A DNA stretch of 36,771 nt from a virus. Positions 8,175 through 35,637 of this stretch are shown here, piece after piece. Below the pieces are notes generated by a model. The model was not told the DNA's origin. It was given only the letters and a program-made list of their open reading frames with translations, and searched no databases. Position numbers and translations under genes: made by a program. Every line of letters begins with the position of its first letter. Positions within the stretch are counted from its first letter, which is position 1. The DNA lies in the IMG/VR virus record IMGVR_UViG_3300046522_000116, positions 1-36,771 of that record. One strand, 5' to 3'.

Positions 8175-8194
8175 TTGGCCCGTTTACGGGACGA
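8175..8194 (-). promoter_or_regulatory. Dispersed palindrome, site 1
   Basis: Minus strand TCGTCCCGTAAACGGGCCAA: arms CCCGT/ACGGG around TA/AA. It fills the gap between the TAA of the ClpP-like gene (8196) and the Shine-Dalgarno of the 52-aa gene. It is the most downstream copy seen. Interpreted as a repressor or stoperator site. Confidence 0.7.
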
Positions 8195-9105: not shown

Positions 9106-9151
9106 GAATAACTCCATGTGACGGAAAACATGATCCTGAAGGGAGGGGGAA

Positions 9152-9171
9152 TTGGCCCGGTTACGGGACAA
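9152..9171 (-). promoter_or_regulatory. Dispersed palindrome, site 2
   Basis: Minus strand TTGTCCCGTAACCGGGCCAA. It begins one base after the TAG stop of the RNA polymerase gene (9173-9175) and precedes the 55-aa gene. Same family as the other sites; likely protein-binding site rather than terminator, since no T-run follows. Confidence 0.72.
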
Positions 9172-9172
9172 T

Positions 9173-11641
9173 CTAGGCGAAGAAGTACTTGCTGTTGAGG
9201 GTTTCGGACAAATCGAGACCGCCAACCATAGGCACGGCAGGGACGCTATCGGTCAGGTGCGCCGGCACGACCTCGCGGGCGAAGGTCTCAAGGACGTTCT
9301 CGCCGGAGTACATGTTGACGAAGCTTTCCCGGAGGGCCTTGGCAAGCGCGGGTGTCCGAGCCGCCGTGGTCCCATAGCTGTCGTGGATCATCGCGAACTT
9401 GGTCAAGCCTCGCTGGGCCGCCAGCACGACCGTGAGGGTCAGAGCGGAGGCGTCGAGGGCGTGAACGAAGTTCGGGGCAATCCCGTTGGCCTGCCGGCGG
9501 CGGTCAATCGTGTCGGGAACCTCCTCATTGTACTTCGGCTGGAACCGAGAGCCCAACAGGGTGGTGTCGATGCGGTTGGTCCGCAGCTCGGGGTAAGCCT
9601 GAACGACGACGAAGCCGCTCGGGGTGGTCCACTGGATCGGACCTTCAGCGGAGATTTTCCGCGTCACGTCCTGTAGCCAGCCCATGGCGAGCCTTGCGGC
9701 CACCACGACTTGCCCGATAGAGGACCAGACGACCGACCCTAGCCAGTTGCAGGAGGAGAACAGGGTGTCTCCGAAGGGGTCCCGAACGCCAGCCGCCAGC
9801 TTCTTAGTGGTCGCCTCCAAGACGTACTTCTGGCAGGACGACAGGGTGCCACCGTAGGGCAGGACCATGACGGGCCGCTTGGTGATGCTCCGGTCGATCC
9901 CGAAGGCTCCCCAAGTGTTGGCGAGGTCCCATTCCTTGCGGTCCTCCTCGGTGATGGCGACCATGCTCCATTGCGGGTGATGCTCCTGCATCGCCGTGTA
10001 GTAGAGCGTGTCGTTCACCACCTTCGCCACCTCGGCGTAAATGTCCTGCGGCTTGTCGCTGGGCACCAGATTGACCGCCTTGCCCCCGACAGGATCGCGG
10101 AGCATGGCCGAGTAGTGCTGGAGCCCGTTGCAGGAACCGTCCATGGCGATGGGGACGCGGGACTTGAAGTTCACCGGGTCCGCATAGAACTGGGCGAACT
10201 CGAAGCACCACGTCAGGAACACGAAGGGACTGTCCGCCTCGGCCCACCAGAGGTAGTCGAGCGGGTCCTTGGCGGCCTGAAGAATGTGCGACAGGTTGTC
10301 CTGCACCCACGCCTTGCGCTCATCGAAGTCCACCTTGTCGACCCCGAAGGAGTTGGCACCGTGGACGAGGAACCAGTCCCGCGCCTCGTTGGTGTGGATC
10401 GGGTCCCCCTCGGCGAACACCAGCAGCCCCTTCGCCACGTCCGATCCTTGCGGATTGAGGACCTGGGGTACGGAGTAGACGCGACCCCGGAAGTCGAGCT
10501 GATGGGGGAAGTAGAGGGCAGGGTACTGGGTGTACTCCTCCGCGATCTTCAGCGTCTTGAGAGCCAGCATCCGCCGCGAGAACAGCGACCGGTTCCGGTT
10601 GTGGACTTGAACCGCTTCCCGTTTCCACAGGTTGCGGGCCGTCTCGTTGGTGTCGATGTCGACCGGCTTGGTCGGCACCGGGTCATCCATCATGGGCGGC
10701 AGGCCCGCCACCTCGTTGCCGGTCGCCAGCAGCGCCTTGAGAACCTCTAGGGTCCTCGTCTCGATGGCCCACGGCGTCCTCTGGATTGAGTTGACCGACG
10801 ACATCACGAGGGAGAGGTCGGCGCTCTGGAGGGCCTTCTTGTGGGACTTGGCTCGCGTCTTGACGAGCTGGAGCGGGTAGGGGAAGGCGGTCGTGTGGTA
10901 GCCGCCGCCCGACAGGCCCGTCCAGTCCTTCGGAGGGACCACACAGGGGAGGTACTCGGGCGACATAATCTCGAACTGCATGTCGAGGGTCGCCACCCAG
11001 TCCCGGAAGCGTTGGGTGGGCTCCAGAACGGTGATGGTCTTCTTCCCCTGCCGGCGGGTGTCGGTGACGAACAGCCCCGTGGAGGCCGACATCAGCTCTA
11101 CCAGCTTGAGGCCGGTCAGCAGTTGGTCCCGCTTCGACCAGCTCTCCCAGTCGTCGCCCTTCTCGCGCAGGAGGTGCATGTAGACGCGCCGCTTGTGCTC
11201 GAAGTGGTCCGTCCGTCCAGCCAGATCGGCCTGCACGGATTTCATGTAGCCCTTGTTCTCCTCGGCGAACTTGGCGATGCGCTGCTCCAGCTCGACCGTG
11301 GAGCCGATGCGGATGGCGAGGTTGGTCAGGTTGGTCTCTTGGGCGTAGCCGTCGAGGACCAGCTTGGCGGCGATGAAGGCGAGGACATCGGCGTCGATCC
11401 CGGTGAAGAAGCGGACGGCGCTATGCCGGCGGCCGGCGCGGCCTGACCCGGCCTCTTGCCGGAACTTCAGGATCGCAGAGGCGGTGGGGTCGATCACCAC
11501 GTCGAGGACTTGCTGCATGGAGCGGGAGCGCGTGGCCTGCCCTTCCTCCCGAGCTTCCAGCGCATTGCGCCTGAAACGCTCGATGCCGAGGGACGCCATA
11601 CGGCCTTCCAGATCGGCTTGAATTTCCATCATTGCTTGCAC
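9173..11641 (-). CDS. T7-like single-subunit RNA polymerase
   Basis: 822 aa from GTG at 11639-11641, chosen because AAGGAG lies five bases upstream (the reading frame is open to 11674). Family signatures: YFPHQLDFRGRVYSVPQ (T7 DWRGRVY motif), AMDGSCNGLQHYSAM (T7 DGSCSGIQHFSAM, catalytic Asp), RSITKRPVMVLPYGGT (catalytic Lys and Tyr) and AMIHDSYGTTAAR (second catalytic Asp), ending FFA like T7 RNAP (FAFA). It transcribes middle and late genes from phage promoters. Its leader holds two palindromic sites and a terminator hairpin, so its expression appears to be the controlled switch of this phage. Confidence 0.97.
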   Translation of the reverse strand: MQAMMEIQADLEGRMASLGIERFRRNALEAREEGQATRSRSMQQVLDVVIDPTASAILKFRQEAGSGRAGRRHSAVRFFTGIDADVLAFIAAKLVLDGYAQETNLTNLAIRIGSTVELEQRIAKFAEENKGYMKSVQADLAGRTDHFEHKRRVYMHLLREKGDDWESWSKRDQLLTGLKLVELMSASTGLFVTDTRRQGKKTITVLEPTQRFRDWVATLDMQFEIMSPEYLPCVVPPKDWTGLSGGGYHTTAFPYPLQLVKTRAKSHKKALQSADLSLVMSSVNSIQRTPWAIETRTLEVLKALLATGNEVAGLPPMMDDPVPTKPVDIDTNETARNLWKREAVQVHNRNRSLFSRRMLALKTLKIAEEYTQYPALYFPHQLDFRGRVYSVPQVLNPQGSDVAKGLLVFAEGDPIHTNEARDWFLVHGANSFGVDKVDFDERKAWVQDNLSHILQAAKDPLDYLWWAEADSPFVFLTWCFEFAQFYADPVNFKSRVPIAMDGSCNGLQHYSAMLRDPVGGKAVNLVPSDKPQDIYAEVAKVVNDTLYYTAMQEHHPQWSMVAITEEDRKEWDLANTWGAFGIDRSITKRPVMVLPYGGTLSSCQKYVLEATTKKLAAGVRDPFGDTLFSSCNWLGSVVWSSIGQVVVAARLAMGWLQDVTRKISAEGPIQWTTPSGFVVVQAYPELRTNRIDTTLLGSRFQPKYNEEVPDTIDRRRQANGIAPNFVHALDASALTLTVVLAAQRGLTKFAMIHDSYGTTAARTPALAKALRESFVNMYSGENVLETFAREVVPAHLTDSVPAVPMVGGLDLSETLNSKYFFA

Positions 11642-11654
11642 GGTTTCTCCTTGG

Positions 11655-11675
11655 TTGGGCACAAGTTCGGGCACA
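11655..11675. repeat. GGGCACA repeat pair at the RNA polymerase leader
   Basis: Plus strand TTGGGCACAAGTTCGGGCAC and the following A. It repeats the TTCGGGCACA unit found four times at 11897-11937 by the tRNA. It overlaps the RNA polymerase ribosome-binding region. It could be an integrase arm-type site or a regulatory element. Confidence 0.5.
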
Positions 11676-11718: not shown

Positions 11719-11738
11719 CCGGTGCGTTTACGGGACAA
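11719..11738 (-). promoter_or_regulatory. Dispersed palindrome, site 3 (one arm degenerate)
   Basis: Minus strand TTGTCCCGTAAACGCACCGG: the first half matches site 4 exactly, the second half is mutated. It lies just downstream of the terminator hairpin in the RNA polymerase leader, about 78 bp before the GTG start. Confidence 0.6.
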
Positions 11739-11794: not shown

Positions 11795-11814
11795 TTGGCC
11801 CGTTTACGGGACAA
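11795..11814 (-). promoter_or_regulatory. Dispersed palindrome, site 4
   Basis: Minus strand TTGTCCCGTAAACGGGCCAA, a near-consensus copy lying upstream of the terminator in the RNA polymerase leader. Confidence 0.75.
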
Positions 11815-11896
11815 TATCCCCACAGAACCTAAATCCCATGGCGGGATTGGTCCTCCGTTGATTTTGTTGGGCAATTTCCCCACGGCGACCACAAGT

Positions 11897-11979: not shown

Positions 11980-12064
11980 GCGCGTGTGGTGGAACTGGTA
12001 GACACAGCAGGTTTAGGTCCTGCCGCCGCAAGGTTTGGGGGTTCGAGTCCCTTCACGCGCACCA
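11980..12064 (+). tRNA. tRNA-Leu(UAG), candidate attP core
   Basis: A complete 85-nt tRNA with encoded CCA: acceptor arms GCGCGTG / CACGCGC, D-arm GGAACTGGTAGAC, anticodon arm GCAGG-TTTAGGT-CCTGC with anticodon TAG at 12014-12016, a type II variable arm (CGCCGCAAGGTTT) and TTCGAGT T-loop. The T-stem has two G-T pairs. It closely follows the bacterial tRNA-Leu(UAG) layout. It lies on the plus strand, opposite to every phage gene, 2 kb from the integrase. tRNA-Leu genes are known attachment sites for integrase-bearing T7-like phages of cyanobacteria and Pelagibacter. It could be the attachment core, a working tRNA, or both. Confidence 0.92.
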
Positions 12065-14022: not shown

Positions 14023-15036
14023 TCAAGCCGCTTTCTCCAGCAAGGCCACGATGTCGTCCAGACCATTCGGCCTGATCTGCATGTAGCGCAGCGTCGTCGT
14101 CAGCTCCGTGTGCCCCATCCACGTCATGACGCGCTTGATGTCGACACCGGCATTGATCAGCCGAGTGCAGCACGTATGGCGCAGCGTGTGGGGCGTCACG
14201 TCATGGAGCCCTGTGGTGGCCCTCATGGTGTCCCATCGGCCCCGCATGGTGTCCTTGTTGCCGCCCGTGAAGGGTCCCTCTCGGTTGTGGAGGGTCTTCT
14301 GCCTTCGGGTGAGCGTCTCGCGGACCCGCTTGGTGAGCGGAATGGTGCGCGGCCTGTTGGTCTTGGTGTGCCAGAAGGTGACCGACATGAACCCCTTCGC
14401 GAAGGCGTCCCATCGGGCGGCCATAGCCTCCGAGTAGCACCGCGCTCCGGTGTCGATCAGGAACTCCGTCAGGTCGCGGAGGTCTTGGTCTCCAGAGGCG
14501 GTCCAGAAGGCGAGCATTGCCCGCTCCTCCAGCTCGTCCACGAAGCGGAACTTGGTCTGCTCCTCCTTCGAGAACCGGATGCGGGGCATCTTGGCGATGA
14601 CCCCCGCGTCGATGGCGACGTGGAGCATCTTCGACAGAGCCGCGCACTTGCGGTTGATGGTAGAGTGTGACAGCCCCTTGTCGGCAAGGTCTGCCCTCAT
14701 TTCCGCGATGTCGGCAGAACCGATGTCGGCGACTGGCTTCTTCTCTCCGAAGTGATCGACCACGGTCTTGGCGTTCACCACGGCGGTCGCCTCGGACTTC
14801 ATACCGGCCCAGTGGGTGCGCTTGACGTGCTCAAACAGGGAGCCGAGGAGGGCGAGGTCGCGGTTGCCGACCTTGCCGGTAGCGATGGGAGGGAGGGCTC
14901 GTCCTTCCTGCACGGCGAGGTTCGCCGCGCCTTCCCATGCTACAGCCTGCGCCTCGGTGTCGAAGGCAGGGCGGTGACGTTTACCGTTCGCGTCAGTGAC
15001 GCTTGCCTGCCATTTATTGCCGCGCTTCCTTGCCAT
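14023..15036 (-). CDS. int: Tyrosine-recombinase integrase
   Basis: 337 aa. N-terminal arm-binding region (ARKRGNKWQASVTDANGKRH), SAM-like core-binding domain at about 65-165, and catalytic domain with Arg in DTGARCYSEA, a Lys in the beta-hairpin (HTKTNRPR), HTLRHTCCTRL (His-x-x-Arg), the second His in WMGHTE and the nucleophile Tyr in TLRYMQI. It should integrate and excise the genome at an attachment site, probably the tRNA-Leu 2 kb downstream. It overlaps the MarR-like gene by 23 nt, which ties its expression to that regulator. Confidence 0.95.
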   Translation of the reverse strand: MARKRGNKWQASVTDANGKRHRPAFDTEAQAVAWEGAANLAVQEGRALPPIATGKVGNRDLALLGSLFEHVKRTHWAGMKSEATAVVNAKTVVDHFGEKKPVADIGSADIAEMRADLADKGLSHSTINRKCAALSKMLHVAIDAGVIAKMPRIRFSKEEQTKFRFVDELEERAMLAFWTASGDQDLRDLTEFLIDTGARCYSEAMAARWDAFAKGFMSVTFWHTKTNRPRTIPLTKRVRETLTRRQKTLHNREGPFTGGNKDTMRGRWDTMRATTGLHDVTPHTLRHTCCTRLINAGVDIKRVMTWMGHTELTTTLRYMQIRPNGLDDIVALLEKAA

Positions 15037-15415
15037 TGTCGTTGGTCTCCGTGTGGAAGTAGCTGGAAATCTTCTCGGCCAGCGTGACGCCGCGCCGGGT
15101 AGGTGCCGCGAGCTGGGCTCGACCGTCGAACGGGTCAGTCACCGTCGTGATCAGGTCGAGACCGGGCTTCGGGTTGGCGCGGTGGTCTGCGCGGTACTCG
15201 CCCTTCGAGAGGGCCAGTATGTTCCTTGAAAGGGCGGACCGGGAAAGTCCCGTGGCCGGGAGTAAATCAGCCACCTTCTTTCCCGGTGACGCCGTAATCA
15301 TCAGATAAATCAGAAGTTGCGAGAGTTCCATCTGCGCGTCGAAAGCGCGGAATTCTTCAACTATCTTGATTAAACACCTGATGTCGCGCTTGTAGTTGTC
15401 ACCTTCAGCGTACAT
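15014..15415 (-). CDS. MarR-like winged-helix regulator, candidate lysogeny repressor
   Basis: 133 aa. MarR layout: dimerisation helix (IRCLIKIVEEFRAFDAQMEL), helix-turn-helix (GKKVADLLPATGLSRSALSR), wing containing DPFDGRAQLAAPTRRGVTLA, which matches the typical DPxDGR...LT..G pattern, and a C-terminal helix. MarR proteins are dimers that bind 16-20-bp palindromes. It is the only complete classical regulator in the early region, it overlaps integrase, and a palindrome-like sequence even lies inside its gene (15245-15264). Best candidate to bind the dispersed 20-bp sites; this is inference. No RecA-cleavable domain is present, so induction would have to work otherwise. Confidence 0.82.
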   Translation of the reverse strand: MYAEGDNYKRDIRCLIKIVEEFRAFDAQMELSQLLIYLMITASPGKKVADLLPATGLSRSALSRNILALSKGEYRADHRANPKPGLDLITTVTDPFDGRAQLAAPTRRGVTLAEKISSYFHTETNDNGKEARQ

Positions 15416-15488: not shown

Positions 15489-15701
15489 TCAAGCTGCCTT
15501 CTTGTATACTATCGTGGCCAGATCATTCACCTTGCCGTGGGCAAAAAGGAATGGCTGCTGGACCATGTGGCTGGCGACCGGGTGGCCGTCTACCATCGCT
15601 CTCAAAGCCGTTGTTAGAAACTCGATTGCCAGTGTCGCCTCCCGGATACACTCCTTATCCATGGTTGCGATCTGTGCCACAAACGCCGCTTCGCGTATCA
15701 T
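15489..15701 (-). CDS. Small helical protein, 70 aa
   Basis: Start ATG 15699-15701 with AGGAAG upstream; an earlier TTG (15726-15728) would leave no ribosome-binding site. Starts MIREAAFVAQIATMDKECIR, ends DLATIVYKKAA; helical throughout. It precedes the MarR-like gene by 73 bp and follows palindrome site 5 by 36 bp. Possible partner or antagonist of the regulator; no family recognised. Confidence 0.7.
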   Translation of the reverse strand: MIREAAFVAQIATMDKECIREATLAIEFLTTALRAMVDGHPVASHMVQQPFLFAHGKVNDLATIVYKKAA

Positions 15702-15736
15702 GTACCTGTACTTCCTCGTGTTTTGCAAGAGAGGGA

Positions 15737-15756
15737 TTGTCCCGGTGCCGGGAATG
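15737..15756 (-). promoter_or_regulatory. Dispersed palindrome, site 5
   Basis: Minus strand CATTCCCGGCACCGGGACAA with perfect CCCGG/CCGGG arms. It lies upstream of the 70-aa gene and the MarR-like/integrase unit, where an autoregulatory operator would be expected. Confidence 0.65.
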
Positions 15757-17780: not shown

Positions 17781-19334
17781 TTAGGCTGCGAGGGCCAGGT
17801 CGAGTTCGAGCTGCTGCGGGTGGTCGATGCGGCCAATCTCGACCGCGCCGTCCTTCCAGTCCCAAAACTGCTCGGTCAGGTAGCGCGTGGCTTCCCAAGC
17901 GAAGACCCGACCATCGTCAAGCTCGCAGCGTTCGTGGTTGTCGAACCACTCCTCCGAGAACTCGCAGAGGAAGGCGTTCTCGTCGGCGTAGCTCTGGACG
18001 TAGGTGTCGCCGTCAGCCAGCGTCACATAGTCGAAGTAGTTGGTCGGATACCAAGTGGACGTGCCGTCGCAGTAGAACACGCTGTCGGTGTAGCGGCGGG
18101 TTGCGTGCTGGCTGATGCTGTAGCCGTCCGGCGAGGCGACCATGCTGTCGATGTGATACACGTTGTCGGTGATGCTACAGGTGAAGTAGCTGTCCGAGTA
18201 GCAGCTCTCGCAGATTTGGTTGCCGGCATGGGTGCTGAAGCTGAAATCCTCATCCATCCGCTCGCCGCAGTCCTCGCAGCGGCACCCTTCCGGGTTCTCT
18301 ACGTTGGTCCCGTTGGTGTGCTGCATGTAGACATCGCCGCCGCGACCCCAAATGAGGTACTCGCCGTCGTCGTGGGCGTAGTTGAACACGTCGCTGTAAG
18401 GCACCGTGTAGAAGTGGCCGTTGTAGATGCGCCGCAGGCGGGCACCCCTGAAGTCGTCGGCGTCACCTTCCTTGTAGCCGGCAGCTTCCAGCGCCGATCC
18501 CATGCGGTGATAGTCGCCGTAGACACGAGCGAAGATTTTCTTCTCCGGCCAGACCACGCACCGGGCCGCAGCGTCGTCAATGCTGCCGATGTAGGCAATG
18601 CCAAGGTCAGGACCAGCGTAGACGCGGGCAGGGTGGCAGTCGCCAGCGAACTGGGCGGCGCTCTTGGACATGCAGGAGTTAGGGCCGTTCTCGTAGACCT
18701 CCTGCACCTCGTCGGCGTCCTGCGTCACCTTCAGCTCGGCAGGCTTGAAATGTGTCTGCCACGCTAGGCCCTGCTCTTGAATGAACTCCTCGGTCAGCAC
18801 GTCGCCGAAGTACTTCTTCAGGTACTTTCCCGGCTTGATAGGCGTCAGCACCCCAGCCTTCCGCTTCTGCGGCGTCTGGTAGTAGGCGACCAGCCCCGGA
18901 AACTTGGTAGAGAAGCGCGGCATGTGCTCGGCCCAGCGGGCAATGTGAGCACGGAACCATTCCTGCTTATGCCACGGCGAGTGCTCCGGGGTCAGGTGCG
19001 GCACGAGTTCGCCGTAAGGGTCGCTGCCGGCAGGGTAGGCGATGAGGTGCAACTGGCTGTTGTCGCCGTACCGCCGCAGATAGTCCGTGAAGTCTTCCAC
19101 GCCGTCGACAAGAGTGGCGCTTATGGCGTCGACAGCGCCCCGATAGTGGCCAGCGGTGCAGACCAAGAGATAGCGACGGAACCGACCGCCCGACCATCCG
19201 TCCCAGTCCTCCGGCACGATGCCAGCTTCAGGGTCCGTCTTGGTGACCCTAGCGTTGACCCGGACGACACCCTTCGGCAGCTCCGGTTCTCTCTCGTGGG
19301 CTTCAGGAGCCCCGTCAGCACATTTCTTGCACAT
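17781..19334 (-). CDS. Large early protein with Zn-ribbon-like cysteines, 517 aa
   Basis: N-terminal CKKC; middle GPNSCMSKSAAQFAG segment typical, from memory, of a family of phage hypotheticals; cysteine pairs CRCEDCGERM and ICESCYSDSYFTC at about 350-390, then many aromatic-acidic strands (DGDTYVQSYADENAFLCEFS) that read like repeated beta units. No enzyme motif seen. ATG 19332-19334 with GGAGAG upstream; palindrome site 6 lies 15 bp upstream, so it is a likely target of early repression. It neighbours the peptidase gene. Function unknown. Confidence 0.85.
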   Translation of the reverse strand: MCKKCADGAPEAHEREPELPKGVVRVNARVTKTDPEAGIVPEDWDGWSGGRFRRYLLVCTAGHYRGAVDAISATLVDGVEDFTDYLRRYGDNSQLHLIAYPAGSDPYGELVPHLTPEHSPWHKQEWFRAHIARWAEHMPRFSTKFPGLVAYYQTPQKRKAGVLTPIKPGKYLKKYFGDVLTEEFIQEQGLAWQTHFKPAELKVTQDADEVQEVYENGPNSCMSKSAAQFAGDCHPARVYAGPDLGIAYIGSIDDAAARCVVWPEKKIFARVYGDYHRMGSALEAAGYKEGDADDFRGARLRRIYNGHFYTVPYSDVFNYAHDDGEYLIWGRGGDVYMQHTNGTNVENPEGCRCEDCGERMDEDFSFSTHAGNQICESCYSDSYFTCSITDNVYHIDSMVASPDGYSISQHATRRYTDSVFYCDGTSTWYPTNYFDYVTLADGDTYVQSYADENAFLCEFSEEWFDNHERCELDDGRVFAWEATRYLTEQFWDWKDGAVEIGRIDHPQQLELDLALAA

Positions 19335-19348
19335 GTCAGTCTCTCCGA

Positions 19349-19368
19349 TTGTCCCGTTAACGGGTTGA
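19349..19368 (-). promoter_or_regulatory. Dispersed palindrome, site 6
   Basis: Minus strand TCAACCCGTTAACGGGACAA with a perfect 12-bp core CCCGTTAACGGG. It ends 15 bp before the ATG of the 517-aa gene, immediately before its Shine-Dalgarno. Confidence 0.78.
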
Positions 19369-19373
19369 TATGG

Positions 19374-19568
19374 TCAAAGTGATCCGACCGGGTGGCCGGC
19401 GGTGTTGATCAGCACGACACGAAAGCCGCGATTGGTTTGCCCCGTGTCGTCATCGCGGAGCGTTGCAGGGACGATGAAGGCCGACGTGTTGGCGTGTTTA
19501 GCGTGGTGGTCGGCGGCGGCGCGTTCGGCTCCGGCGCGGCTGATGAAAAGCGTGATGCGATCCGACAT
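19374..19568 (-). CDS. Small hypothetical protein, 64 aa
   Basis: Starts MSDRITLFISRAGAERAAAD, ends LINTAGHPVGSL. Alternating strand and helix pattern like a small alpha/beta domain. GGAG lies nine bases before the ATG and palindrome site 7 just before that. No family recognised. Confidence 0.75.
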   Translation of the reverse strand: MSDRITLFISRAGAERAAADHHAKHANTSAFIVPATLRDDDTGQTNRGFRVVLINTAGHPVGSL

Positions 19569-19581
19569 GGTTGCGGCTCCG

Positions 19582-19601
19582 TTGTCCCGTTGCCGGGACT
19601 A
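19582..19601 (-). promoter_or_regulatory. Dispersed palindrome, site 7
   Basis: Minus strand TAGTCCCGGCAACGGGACAA; arms GTCCCG/CGGGAC. Its first three bases are the TAG stop of the 78-aa gene, and it ends 13 bp before the ATG of the 64-aa gene. Confidence 0.78.
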
Positions 19602-20457: not shown

Positions 20458-20486
20458 AATATGTGCCCGTTGACGGGACAAAACAA
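20458..20486 (-). promoter_or_regulatory. Candidate early promoter with operator in the spacer
   Basis: Minus strand TTGTTT, 17 bp, CATATT. The 17-bp spacer is almost exactly palindrome site 8, so a bound repressor would block host RNA polymerase. The hexamers are weak matches. Confidence 0.45.
20462..20481 (-). promoter_or_regulatory. Dispersed palindrome, site 8
   Basis: Minus strand TTGTCCCGTCAACGGGCACA; arms CCCGT/ACGGG on the plus strand. Lies between possible -35 and -10 boxes. Confidence 0.72.
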
Positions 20487-20572: not shown

Positions 20573-20592
20573 TTGGCCCGTTGCCGTGACAA
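20573..20592 (-). promoter_or_regulatory. Dispersed palindrome, site 9
   Basis: Minus strand TTGTCACGGCAACGGGCCAA, one arm base changed. It would cover about +3 to +22 of the promoter at 20602-20630. Confidence 0.65.
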
Positions 20593-20670: not shown

Positions 20671-20737
20671 GTGCCCCGTTAGGTGTCGATTTGTCCCGTT
20701 AGCGGGCGATTAATGTGCCCCGTTTGGCTTGCCGGGA
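20671..20737 (-). promoter_or_regulatory. Operator cluster: site 10 plus two half-sites
   Basis: Full copy at 20691-20710 (minus strand ATCGCCCGCTAACGGGACAA). On either side lie half-sites with TAACGGGGCACA (20671-20682) and AAACGGGGCACA (about 20713-20724). With sites 8 and 9 this makes the densest group of these motifs, at the head of the early region. Confidence 0.65.
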
Positions 20738-20811
20738 TCACCTCGCCGACCGTGCGCCGTTCGGTTCCCTATCGTGGTGCTTGCGTGGCGCTGGAGGGAG
20801 CTGGCGTACAG

Positions 20812-20853
20812 TGTACGGTGTGCGGTACGGTGTACGGTGTGCGGTACGGTGTA
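20812..20853. repeat. 19-bp tandem repeat, two copies plus a partial third
   Basis: Plus strand unit TGTACGGTGTGCGGTACGG at 20812-20830 and 20831-20849, then TGTA. A related TGTACGCTGTACG follows near 20862. No coding frame fits. Confidence 0.8.
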
Positions 20854-21283
20854 TCGATATGTGTACGCTGTACGATACAGATAGCCTCTGACAGACATGT
20901 AATAACATAACGCTTGAACGACATAGATAGCGCCATGCGCACCACGTTAGCGCCACGTTTGGCCGCCCATTGGTTACCATATCCGGTGTGAAGCCTTGCG
21001 CCATAAGGGTTTGCGGGCGATGTGTGCCCGAATGTGTGCCCCATGGTGCTTTGGGGAGAACTGGCACGGGCGCTCGCGCGTGAGAGACGAGGGGGCACGG
21101 GGGGTCGCGCGGTTCATCAACTGTCGAGTTCGACCCAACGGATTTTTGTGTCAGTTTGAAACGCCCCCTTCAGAGCCACTACAGGGCCACTTCAGGGTCT
21201 ACATGATTGGAGGGAGGAGGGAGGGAGAGCTATGCTCGATCCCATAAGGGGCACTATCGTGTACCCAAGGGTGGCCTATCGGA
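20854..21283. other. Non-coding stretch, probable genome-terminus zone
   Basis: No open frame with a credible start on the coding strand. Contains purine-rich GGAGGGAGGAGGGAGGGAG near 21208-21229 and further CCTTCAG/GGGCCAC fragments. T7-like phages carry their terminal repeats between the terminase and early promoters, so a physical end could lie here. Confidence 0.5.
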
Positions 21284-21428: not shown

Positions 21429-21457
21429 GGAGGGGCCTTTCCTGAAGGGAGGGGTAA

Positions 21458-23272
21458 TCATCCGTTCGCTGGAGCCATCCCGTAGAACATGGCCTTGGCC
21501 TCGGCTCTCTCCCTCTCTTGAGCAGAGGGTCCCTTACGGGCAGGGCCGGCCTTGGAGTAGCCCTTGGGGCTCCCACCGACCAGATGGGCCATGAAGACCT
21601 TCAGCTCTCTGTCGAGGGCTTCCTGCTTCGCCTGCTCCGCTGCCTTCTCCACGTCACGGGACATGACGGAGGTCCAGTAGTGGACAGCCAGGGCGAGGGC
21701 GTCGAGCCTGTCGTCCTTCACGATGGCACCGCGATCACGGGTGATGCGGGTCATCTGGTAGAACAGCCTGTAGCGGTTGCGGTGCTCGGGCTGGTAGCTC
21801 TCGGTGGACTGGAAGTCCCGCTCGATGAGCTGGCGGTCGACCACGAGGCGGTGGCCGTTCAGGACCGGCTCCAGCGTGTCCACGATCCGCTGTTCCTTCT
21901 GACCCTTGGACCGTTCGGTCTCACTGATCTTGCAGGGGTGGATGCGGGCCATGACAGGCGCCAAGATTTTGTTGAACATGCCGTCGCCGAAGTTGGGCTC
22001 GATGACGACCTCGTTGACGCCGTACTCCTTCGCCTTCATCGCCAGAGCTTCGAGGGTTGGGTCCTCATAGCCGCCAGTGAAGCCACCAGCGTCCAGTAGG
22101 AACAGCCGGCCCATGAGGGTGGCCACGATGGCGTAGCCCGTCTCGTCGCCGCCACGACCGCTAGGATCGATGGCCATGACGATGCCCGTGTAGGGCTTCC
22201 AGTCGTCCTTGGAGATCATGAAGGGCCGGTAGAAGCGATCCCCGTCGAACCCTACGGTAGGCACGTCGTTGACCACGTTGGCGTTGTCTAGGCCCCATGC
22301 GAGTTGGATAGGGGCACTGGAGGGGTCGAGGTCCATGACCATCAGGTCCCGGAGCTTCAGCGGGTAGCGATCCGCGTCGGCCAGTGAGGTGTCCAGCATG
22401 AACTGGAGAGCGAAGCCGGCAGCGCCGTACTCCGCGAGGTTCTCCATCAGCTTCTCCTCGTTGAAGCGGGAGCACACAGGCTTGCCTACGAGGTCCTTGG
22501 AGCCCTTCAGGTCCCGGAGGAGGTAGGAGGCCAGACGTGTGCCGTAACGCGCCTGCTGGGCCGCTGTGGGGTAACGGGAGGGGATGATGCGTATCTCGTA
22601 GCCGCGCTCGGGCAGGGCGTTGTAAATCGACTGCTCTGTCTGCGGGGTGCCGAGGTAGATGATCTTGGGATCGTGCTTCATGAAGGCCGCGTCGAACGGC
22701 TTCAGGATAGCGGCGAACTCCTTCGTCAGTTCCTTGAGCTTGTCGCGCATGGCCTGCGTTGCGGAGTTGTTGGTGACCTCGATGTCGTCGGCGATGATCA
22801 CGTCAGCGCGGGAGCCGGTGAGCTGGCCGGTGATGCCGACCGACTTGACCGAGGGGCTGTCGTCAGCCGAGGCCGGACCCACGTCGAAGGCGATCTTCGA
22901 GTTGCGCTGGTCGCCGGTAGGCTTCAGGTGCTTGAGGAATGGCACCTCGTTGATGAGGCGCAGGGTGAAGGTGGAGAAGTTGTCGGCGCGGGTCTTGGAG
23001 GCCGACACCACCATGATCTTCAGTTGGGGATCGCGGTAGAGTAGCCAGCAGACGTAGGCCGCCGTGACCCAGCTCTTGCCGATCCCACGGAAGGCCATGA
23101 TGACCAACTTCGAGGGGCCGTTCTGGAGCCACTCGGCCATCGCGTACTGCGACCGGGTGGGCTCGGGGAGCTTCAGGTGTTTCCAGAGGAGATAGAGGAA
23201 GGTCTTGAAGTCGTCCTCAAGGCGCACTTGCGTCGAGAGGTGGGTCGAGGAGTTCAGGGCTTGTTTGGTCAC
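21458..23272 (-). CDS. Terminase large subunit (T7 gp19-like)
   Basis: 604 aa (T7 gp19 586). ATPase domain with Walker A AFRGIGKSWV at residues 60-69, ADVIIADDIE (Walker B) and IIYLGTPQTEQS (coupling motif); RNase H-like nuclease domain with MAIDPSGRGGDETGYA and DDRLDALALAVHYW. It packages DNA into the prohead and cuts the concatemer. GTG start 23270-23272 with GAAGGGA upstream. Last late gene, followed by the repeat-rich terminus region. Confidence 0.96.
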   Translation of the reverse strand: MTKQALNSSTHLSTQVRLEDDFKTFLYLLWKHLKLPEPTRSQYAMAEWLQNGPSKLVIMAFRGIGKSWVTAAYVCWLLYRDPQLKIMVVSASKTRADNFSTFTLRLINEVPFLKHLKPTGDQRNSKIAFDVGPASADDSPSVKSVGITGQLTGSRADVIIADDIEVTNNSATQAMRDKLKELTKEFAAILKPFDAAFMKHDPKIIYLGTPQTEQSIYNALPERGYEIRIIPSRYPTAAQQARYGTRLASYLLRDLKGSKDLVGKPVCSRFNEEKLMENLAEYGAAGFALQFMLDTSLADADRYPLKLRDLMVMDLDPSSAPIQLAWGLDNANVVNDVPTVGFDGDRFYRPFMISKDDWKPYTGIVMAIDPSGRGGDETGYAIVATLMGRLFLLDAGGFTGGYEDPTLEALAMKAKEYGVNEVVIEPNFGDGMFNKILAPVMARIHPCKISETERSKGQKEQRIVDTLEPVLNGHRLVVDRQLIERDFQSTESYQPEHRNRYRLFYQMTRITRDRGAIVKDDRLDALALAVHYWTSVMSRDVEKAAEQAKQEALDRELKVFMAHLVGGSPKGYSKAGPARKGPSAQERERAEAKAMFYGMAPANG

Positions 23273-33220: not shown

Positions 33221-35637
33221 CAGTATCCTTTTGGGTAAGCCCCGCCGGTCCACTTGTAGGAGAGGATCGAGTAGGGGTAGGGGCCGGAGTTCTCGAAGCG
33301 GATCGACACGTCGTCAGACGCCGCCATGATCGACAGAGCCTTCGCCAGCTTGCCCACGATCAGGGAGCCGAGAGTGCTTGTCTTGGTGCCCACGATGGCC
33401 GCCGAGAGGCGGTGAACGAAGGCTGGGCGGTAGGCCCGCGTCAGGGTCACGTTCAGGCCCACGGAAGGCCCCGTATCGAAGCGCATGGAGGCGATGTTGA
33501 GTGTCACTCCCGGCACCGCGTTGCCTTCAGTCCCGTCACGGCTTTTCTGCCGAACGACGAAGGGAGACATGACCCCGTAGGCTTGGTAGGGGAACCCGAC
33601 GTAGGCCGATTGTCCCCCGTAGTTGCCCTGCACGATCAGTGAGGTGCCTGCGGAGGAGACCACGGTGGGCTGGGTGCCGAAGGCCGTGCCGGTGTTCAGG
33701 ATCGCGATGGACCCCGCTGCCGGGTATGGCGTCGTGTAGGTGGTCTGGTCGGTGCTGGCGTTGTAGGCCCCTGTCAGGGTCACGCGCCGGTCGAGCAGGA
33801 GGATGGCTGGGCTGTTGTCGGTCCACGCCTCGTGGCAGTTGATGCCGAGGTGTTCGACGTAGGTGCCGTCCGAGGCGATGACGATCAGCTCCTCGCCCAC
33901 GAACTTCATGGCCTTGACGTTGGCCGGGAGGATCCACTTCTGCCACGCGGACTGGGCTTTGTTCTGCCCGATCCAGAGCCACTTGTAGGTGTAGATCGCG
34001 GTCGGGTCCGAACTGGAGACCATGGCCAGAAGCTTCAGGTCGTCGTCCCCGTCCATCATGAACACGCCGGTCGGCACGTAGCCGTGGCAATGCTCGTTGA
34101 TCGCAGGGGCCTCCTGAATGGTCTCGTCCTGAATGTTCTTGAACTCGTGGACAAAGGCACCGCTGTCGGTGTCGTTGATGAAGAACATGGTGTTCCCACA
34201 GGCGACCGGGCGGGCCTTGGTGCTTGACCGGTTAGACAGCGTTGGCGCGAAGCTCGCCGTCTTCTGCGAGAAAATGTCTCCACCCTTCATGCGGAAGGGG
34301 ATCGACGCCGTGAAGATGATCAGCTCGCCGGCCAGAGAGACCGCGTGGTAGGCCGTCGACACGTCCTCGTAGGAGATGGCTTGGTCAATCGGGTCCGTGT
34401 CCAGAATGGTCAGTATCGTCTCGCGGAAGAAGTTGAAGAACGATCCGACGCGGGAGAACACGACGTTCTCACCTGACATGAGGCCCAGCCGGTTGTGCGC
34501 GAACGCGAGACCGTTGATGCCGAAGCCCACGAAGGAGGGCCAGACGTTGGTGACACTATCGCCCACCGCTCGGTCATCCCAAACACCCTGCTTGAAGGTG
34601 AAGGTGCCGTCAGCCTCGCGCACGAGGACGTGGGGCATGGTGGCCTTGTCCATCCCGAGCTTCTCGCCGGGACCGAGGCATTCCTTCCATCGACCTTGAC
34701 CGTCGTTGGTGCCCTGCTGGAACTGGACCCAGTAGTCGTCGTAGTCGGTGTCGGAGCTACCGGCCACCTTGATCGTGAACCCCACGGGAGCCACTCGGGG
34801 CAGCGAGGAGAAGTCCTTCACGAGGCCCTTATGGCACCTGAAGGCATCCTCACGGCCATCGGCGGTAACCGAGACGGTGAAGTCGTTGCCGAGCTTGTTC
34901 TTGAGATAGATCACGTTGTCGATGCGCGTGACTTGCCAGACGGCAGGGTCGAGGTTCGCTAGGCTCCCTGTAGGGATGCCGTCACCCCAGCCAGCGTTCG
35001 GCGGGGATTGCCTGAAGGGGATGGTCGGGACGCCGGTCGCGAGGACCGAGGCGATACAGGCGACGGTAGTCTGCGTCTCCGCGAAACGAGCCGCGTCTTG
35101 GTCGGCGAGGGGGCCGCCGTTCGTCAGGTAGGACGCGACCTGGCTCCCGTTGATGAAGATTTTGTAGTTGGTGTGGTACTCCCCGCTGACGACATGCAGG
35201 AGGGCCGACTTCTCCAGAACCGGAGAGGTGGCCGTGCCCTGCGCGACGATCTTCTTCTTGTTCACGACGAACGTGTAGTCGGCGACCGTCAGGGCGTCGT
35301 AGTCCGAAGGGTCCGTGACACCGGACAGATAGCCGATGCCGTTAGGGGCGTTGACCGTTTTGGCGTTGCCGGCGAAGTCATGGACCACGACCCCGGAGGG
35401 GCTCATGCGGACCACGTACCGCTCGGTCGCGTCTCGGTCGATGACATGAAATTTCGTGTTTGCCGCAGGGGCACCAGAGATGCGCCCCTTCAGGATCGCA
35501 GGGTTACGAGGAACGAGGTTCCGGGTCACCGTGGGAAACTGGTTGACGCTCTCTTGGAGCTGCGAGGGGAGACGAACTTCTGGAGCTTGGCGACTTACGC
35601 CGTTGATGAGGTTGGGTGAGCCGCCTTCAGCTCTCAT
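33220..35637 (-). CDS. Tail tubular protein B (T7 gp12-like)
   Basis: 805 aa (T7 gp12 794). Characteristic N-terminus PNLINGVSRQAPEVRLPSQL, similar to the T7 gp12 LLGGVSQQ start, and VRNLVPRNPA; internal FNFFRETILTILDTDPIDQA and IPFRMKGGDIFSQKTASFAP match gp12 conserved stretches. It forms the nozzle of the short tail. Its start overlaps the tail-tube A stop (TAATG). Confidence 0.94.
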   Translation of the reverse strand: MRAEGGSPNLINGVSRQAPEVRLPSQLQESVNQFPTVTRNLVPRNPAILKGRISGAPAANTKFHVIDRDATERYVVRMSPSGVVVHDFAGNAKTVNAPNGIGYLSGVTDPSDYDALTVADYTFVVNKKKIVAQGTATSPVLEKSALLHVVSGEYHTNYKIFINGSQVASYLTNGGPLADQDAARFAETQTTVACIASVLATGVPTIPFRQSPPNAGWGDGIPTGSLANLDPAVWQVTRIDNVIYLKNKLGNDFTVSVTADGREDAFRCHKGLVKDFSSLPRVAPVGFTIKVAGSSDTDYDDYWVQFQQGTNDGQGRWKECLGPGEKLGMDKATMPHVLVREADGTFTFKQGVWDDRAVGDSVTNVWPSFVGFGINGLAFAHNRLGLMSGENVVFSRVGSFFNFFRETILTILDTDPIDQAISYEDVSTAYHAVSLAGELIIFTASIPFRMKGGDIFSQKTASFAPTLSNRSSTKARPVACGNTMFFINDTDSGAFVHEFKNIQDETIQEAPAINEHCHGYVPTGVFMMDGDDDLKLLAMVSSSDPTAIYTYKWLWIGQNKAQSAWQKWILPANVKAMKFVGEELIVIASDGTYVEHLGINCHEAWTDNSPAILLLDRRVTLTGAYNASTDQTTYTTPYPAAGSIAILNTGTAFGTQPTVVSSAGTSLIVQGNYGGQSAYVGFPYQAYGVMSPFVVRQKSRDGTEGNAVPGVTLNIASMRFDTGPSVGLNVTLTRAYRPAFVHRLSAAIVGTKTSTLGSLIVGKLAKALSIMAASDDVSIRFENSGPYPYSILSYKWTGGAYPKGY

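Follow-up and report, generated by a model that had tools for sequence, protein, structure and literature searches.

A MarR-type regulator beside the integrase of a temperate T7-like phage and its predicted set of dispersed operators

T7-like phages were long considered strictly lytic, and how the temperate ones silence their very active phage polymerase is the open question addressed here. MarR-based lysogeny control has already been proposed for phage Pasto (Boeckman et al., Virology 2022, as cited in PMC10134795). In the 2023 paper on LUZ100, a MarR-like protein was proposed as a lysogeny repressor that acts on the polymerase promoter, and Boeckman et al. 2022 is cited there for binding sites flanking the polymerase promoter (PMC10134795). 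The LUZ100 authors had no explanation for the initial activation of its polymerase, and stable lysogens were not obtained (PMC10134795); the idea of a MarR lysogeny repressor is repeated in PMC11321410. For the MarR protein next to the integrase in our sequence, the repressor hypothesis is sound, although the idea has precedents. The apparent additions of the present analysis are the predicted operator set of this phage, the distinction between these sites and the phage promoters, and the finding that several lineages carry re-coded operators at shared positions; part of this, at least for Pasto, may already be contained in Boeckman et al. 2022.

The stretch of DNA analyzed (the window; 36,771 nt, IMG/VR record IMGVR_UViG_3300046522_000116) comes from a temperate T7-like phage, and almost all of its genes are carried on the minus strand. 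Its main genes are as follows.

15014..15415, minus strand: MarR-type winged-helix regulator of 133 aa with ATG start, PHROG 9665, the proposed lysogeny repressor
14023..15036, minus strand: tyrosine integrase of 337 aa (Phage_integrase, E 1.8e-20; phrog_1, 1.2e-53)
15489..15728, minus strand: conserved small ORF of 79 aa, upstream of marR
11980..12064, plus strand: tRNA-Leu between int and the RNA polymerase gene, candidate attachment site
9173..11674, minus strand: T7-like phage RNA polymerase of 833 aa (phrog_414, 5e-264), the proposed main target of repression
to ~20.5 kb: early genes
21458-23272: terminase
elsewhere in the window: tail genes

The marR gene is located directly upstream of the tyrosine integrase gene, with the T7-like RNA polymerase gene downstream; the marR-int-polymerase order is common to the window, Pasto, LUZ100, Lo5R7ANS, HTVC120P, CRP-118 and RHEph01. 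Pasto and the Limnohabitans phage also have a tRNA-Leu within the int-to-polymerase interval. Near the end of contig L004 (11661-11715), 55 bp correspond, in inverted orientation, to the tRNA-Leu region of the window; this match is either an assembly artefact or an att remnant. About 7.5 kb of relative G001 (L008 about 11.1-18.6 kb) is absent from the window record, at the place that is taken by the portal to capsid genes in Pasto. The window ends (1 and 36771) flank this gap, so the record is an incomplete, permuted copy. In G001 the missing segment includes a tRNA-Asn gene (L008 17913-17988). Short tandem-like repeats (GTACGGTGTGCG; GCACCGCACGGGCACC) are present at 20794-20874 of the window and 34144-34455 of G001, between terminase and the early genes and near the expected genome end.

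The marR and integrase genes overlap by 23 nt (15014-15036); this value, given in an earlier note on this DNA, is exact by the coordinates 15014-15415 and 14023-15036. In Pasto the overlap is 35 nt, and in LUZ100 and RHEph01 there is none, so the overlap is not essential. Homologous reading frames, 88-91% identical, are found in three other records including one Mesorhizobium contig, and together with the PHROG 9665 membership they indicate that the ORF is real. PHROG 9665, annotated as 'transcriptional regulator', matches the 133-aa protein at 8.3e-21 and is matched by 11 of the 11 aligned relatives of the regulator; it is the regulator family of temperate T7-like phages. The Pfam family MarR_2 (PF12802) matches the protein weakly (E 0.024; 15.2 bits, below the cut-off of 27), and the MarR assignment is based on the predicted structure and the family profile. 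The profile of the regulator family found solved MarR structures (3bpv, E 1.7e-5). The single-chain AlphaFold model (pLDDT 83.6, pTM 0.76) contains predicted helices at residues 7-25, 31-42, 48-55 and 59-69, one wing at 89-105 and one further helix at 107-120. The leading PDB matches to it are all of the MarR family (prob 1.00), including DNA-bound MepR. By this model the protein has the MarR winged-helix fold, in agreement with the earlier reading.

The same note had described the protein as the only complete classical regulator near the integrase, and this holds for the neighbouring small ORFs that were tested, in none of which a regulator domain was recognisable. Among these neighbours, the 79-aa protein encoded upstream of marR contains a TALRAMVDGHP motif and matches no known family; similar small genes occupy the same place in Pasto (gp6) and in the prophage remnant L043, and the protein is possibly a partner or an anti-repressor.

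To score sites in the window, we built a matrix only from sites in G001, L004 and G002. It yielded nine window sites with scores of 18-28, compared with 0-1 sites at a threshold of 12 in Markov-shuffled windows, and on this count the dispersed 20-bp palindromes that had been noticed before are real. The core of the site is GTCCCG-N4-CGGGAC, in a 20-bp palindrome. The predicted operators (no strand assigned) comprise the nine sites and one weaker site.

8175..8194: predicted operator ahead of the SSB region, score 25.5
9152..9171: predicted operator immediately past the RNA polymerase stop codon and adjoining the first middle phage promoter, score 26.1
11719..11738: weaker, half-like predicted operator, situated between 11795 and the start of the polymerase gene, score 9.2
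11795..11814: predicted operator upstream of the phage RNA polymerase gene, the best site, score 28.0
15737..15756: predicted operator ahead of the operon of small gene, marR and int, score 18.2
19349..19368: predicted operator before gene 17781-19334, score 25.4
19582..19601: predicted operator before the early ORF 19374-19568, score 26.8
20462..20481: predicted operator, early region, score 24.6
20573..20592: predicted operator, early region, kept in G001 and G002, score 23.8
20691..20710: predicted operator, early region, score 18.8

No strong site was found by the matrix scan in the late genes of the window, and in G001 (42.5 kb) the interval from 3.5 to 34.5 kb is free of sites this strong. 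Counterparts of site 15737 are in place in L004 (7482), G001 (L009 19884) and G002 (7901), and that of L043 reads GTCCCCTCATGGGGCC. Relative L084 contains three sites in the polymerase leader, and the DNA around 20462..20481 resembles the surroundings of Pasto site 552 (half-site GTCACT). Two of the nine window sites are formally inside listed ORFs, which we read as one out-of-frame ORF over the polymerase end and one upstream extension of an early ORF. One site-like sequence inside marR (15245, score 10.5) was regarded as a probable chance match. Searched alone against 2.9 million viral contigs, the operator pattern returned three contigs, two of them relatives of this phage (polymerase 76-82% identical). 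Both of these have sites after the polymerase gene and before SSB, and the longer one also has three sites before the polymerase gene.

The central bases of the site, NNAA on the gene strand, are asymmetric, and binding by a simple symmetric dimer does not account for this. Because the asymmetric center is in one orientation at most sites, and because the Pasto site GTCACTCAAGGGTGA resembles T7 CTCACTATAGGGAGA, we considered that the palindromes might be promoters of the phage's own T7-like RNA polymerase, with the MarR-like protein regulating only its own operon; the same palindrome scan also picks up the phage promoter in the lytic phage T7-Ah. However, separate T7-like promoter motifs were found in Pasto, G001 and the window, and the idea was dropped. 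The window copies are as follows.

9134..9148, minus strand: T7-like phage-polymerase promoter core CCCCTCCCTTCAGGA
21440..21454, minus strand: another copy of the phage promoter core, past the terminase gene

The first core matches in place Pasto 11881 and G001 2491, the second Pasto 42179 and G001 33650. In Pasto, phage promoters of the ACCCCGCACACTAGGA type are located at 11881, 21997, 32516 and 42179; they recur past the polymerase gene, ahead of the head genes, in the late genes and beyond terminase. Those of G001 are at 2491, 11991 and 33650. It is this motif, not the palindrome, that recurs in the late region. The TSS-mapped phage promoters of LUZ100 likewise differ in motif from its dispersed sites (PMC10134795), and the site upstream of marR is reversed in L004 and G001. 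We therefore regard promoter function of the palindromes as very unlikely. Operator 9152-9171 directly abuts promoter core 9134-9148, and G001 is arranged likewise; in Pasto, the operator and promoter are a few bases apart. With the start taken at GG, as in T7, the -17 position of the promoter would overlap operator 9152-9171 by about 2 bp.

For each relative, all 4096 half-sites with spacings of 2-8 were ranked between genes, and meaningless spacings served as control. Clustering of exact-copy palindromes had missed sites in other phages, which this degenerate half-site enumeration recovered. The top motif is GTCCCG-N4 in the window (z 9.3), GTCACC/GTCACT-N4 in Pasto (z 10.7; regulator 35% identical), GTCTCG-N4 in the Limnohabitans phage YIMV22061 (z 7.2; 26% identical) and ATTCAC-N2 (ATTCAC/ATCCAC) in RHEph01 (z 10.5; 24% identical). 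In one LUZ100 relative it is TATGCA-N4, equal to the TATCCAC motif (z 10.1), from a scan of the whole locus with only marR masked, which is less strict than the between-gene scans. In LUZ100 itself, whose regulator is 26-28% identical to the window protein, the repeated motif TATCCACYRG has 7 matches against 0.2 expected, and ACTATCCACYRGCGCA repeats are located at 375, 576, 3938, 3994, 6688 and 6964 of L013. In CRP-118 and CRP-403, GTTACG-N4 occurs a short way upstream of the polymerase gene and again right behind it (two sites in CRP-118). Control T7-like phages, which lack an annotated regulator of the PHROG 9665 family or have a CI repressor, gave z 5.0-5.7; one control reached z 7.8, and its signal is that phage's own promoter. 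RHEph21 gave a weak signal (z 6.7). The de novo motif search found no clear operator set in Lo5R7ANS, the pelagiphages or most of the distant Hyphomicrobiales prophage relatives, and viral-contig scans with the Pasto protein, the L043 protein and the family alignment returned no loci.

The sites recur at the early genes, ahead of marR in Pasto and RHEph01, in front of the polymerase gene and immediately behind it, and before SSB. In RHEph01, they lie in the early region, directly before marR, in the int-polymerase interval, 5 nt past the polymerase stop and before SSB, a placement in agreement with that in the window and Pasto. In LUZ100, the motif lies inside the -35/-10 spacers of P1 and P2, which are sigma70 promoters with starts mapped in PMC10134795; its other sites are between int and the polymerase gene, 2 nt past the polymerase stop, and at the end of the gene that precedes SSB. 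These positions suggest host promoters as additional targets of the LUZ100 regulator, beyond the published phi1. No operator was found directly before marR in LUZ100 and CRP-118, so autoregulation is not universal. A C four bases from the dyad is common to all five operator types, and Ser63-Arg64 (S63-R64) in the recognition helix is invariant among the compared regulators; we infer that S63-R64 contacts this C. The link between regulator and palindromes drawn in the earlier note gains support from the similar geometry, the corresponding genomic places, and half-sites that differ where the regulator differs.

The sites might also be bound by another protein, of the host or from one unannotated phage gene, with the role of the MarR-like protein limited to integrase expression or excision. 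Several small early genes without a recognisable domain, including the 79-aa gene by marR, could supply such a protein. However, the half-sites vary with the divergent regulators while place and similar geometry are kept, and T7-like phages without an annotated gene of the PHROG 9665 family show no comparable set. Sites of a host factor are not expected to vary so between phages of related hosts, and rhizobia or their relatives are the source of the window, Pasto and RHEph01 alike. We consider binding by another protein unlikely. As RNA, the palindromes could form hairpins with a 6-bp stem and a 4-base loop that serve to terminate, process or protect early transcripts; with 6-4-6 geometry and the NNAA center on the gene strand, they would fold as short GC-rich tetraloop hairpins. 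Sites of the RHEph01 and LUZ100 class, however, leave only 2 bases between the arms, those of LUZ100 in promoter spacers lie upstream of the mapped starts, and the sites before marR in L004 and G001 are reversed in orientation, all of which makes a hairpin role extremely improbable.

It is very likely, in our judgment, that the MarR-type protein is the prophage repressor of this temperate T7-like phage, with the approximately nine 20-bp palindromes as its predicted operators. As a dimer, the regulator would bind about nine palindromes over the early and first middle region. It would thereby occupy the early promoters of host RNA polymerase, the phage polymerase leader and the first phage-polymerase promoter, and the T7-type transcription cascade would be blocked at its source, at three levels; late genes would then need no operators. 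Operator-like sites are located at the early region, the polymerase leader and the first middle phage promoter; the host promoters there were not located by consensus scan, as the sigma70 search gave no convincing promoter at the window's early operators. Through site 15737, upstream of its own operon, autoregulation is plausible. Dimer binding, repression and immunity by the 133-aa protein are what we infer from the sequences and the model.

As for release, the earlier note had pointed out that the regulator has no CI-type self-cleavage domain, and the 133-aa protein, which consists of the winged helix only, has no Pfam match to the S24 peptidase domain. The redox signal proposed there as a possible inducer finds no support: C14, the only cysteine, is S, T, K or A in relatives, which makes OhrR-type redox sensing unlikely. 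Both a conserved cysteine switch and self-cleavage are thus unlikely ways to release repression, and relief by an anti-repressor is one possibility. RHEph01 encodes an annotated anti-repressor, Ant (BRO-N; L075 7853-8344), directly after the polymerase gene and its operator, and Ant is a candidate inducer of the MarR-controlled switch. LUZ100 encodes a KilA-N protein; among the window ORFs tested, no anti-repressor was recognisable.

More broadly, temperate T7-like phages probably share one immunity design, in which a minimal MarR-type repressor uses a private operator at conserved points to block the early host promoters, the polymerase gene and the first phage promoters. The lineages would have re-coded this operator as GTCCCG, GTCACT, GTCTCG or GTTACG with 4 bases between the arms, or as ATCCAC with 2. 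If true, these phages offer a naturally occurring set of repressor-operator pairs that are probably orthogonal, and immunity groups can be predicted from them. With predicted operators in five lineages, repression, immunity grouping and induction become testable; these operators may help to flag temperate phages before therapy, and the regulators are a possible source of orthogonal repressors for T7-type expression systems.

Like the window, Pasto has the arrangement small gene, marR, overlapping int, tRNA-Leu and RNA polymerase, a regulator of the same PHROG, and dispersed palindromes at corresponding places; different from the window, its half-site is GTCACT instead of GTCCCG and its regulator is only 35% identical. 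LUZ100 resembles the window in its T7-like genome, with marR and int in one operon and a proposed polymerase repressor (PMC10134795), and differs in its 26-28% identical regulator and the TATCCACYRG motif; whereas the published model places the repressor at phi1 (PMC10134795), the repeated motif described here is also inside P1 and P2. ProddE is a temperate T7-like phage with its repressor gene between int and the RNA polymerase gene, but that repressor is annotated as similar to phi80 CI and is of another type. The ProddE locus (L077 4867-5637) has, in addition to the CI-type repressor, an excisionase and an antirepressor gene. With cellular MarR, MexR, MepR and PcaV, the window protein shares the winged-helix fold and the palindromic operators, at 11-22% identity among the structural matches listed; different from the cellular family, it has no conserved sensing cysteine. 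Cellular MarR proteins act at one or two operators of a resistance or catabolic operon, whereas here many predicted ones are dispersed over a phage genome.
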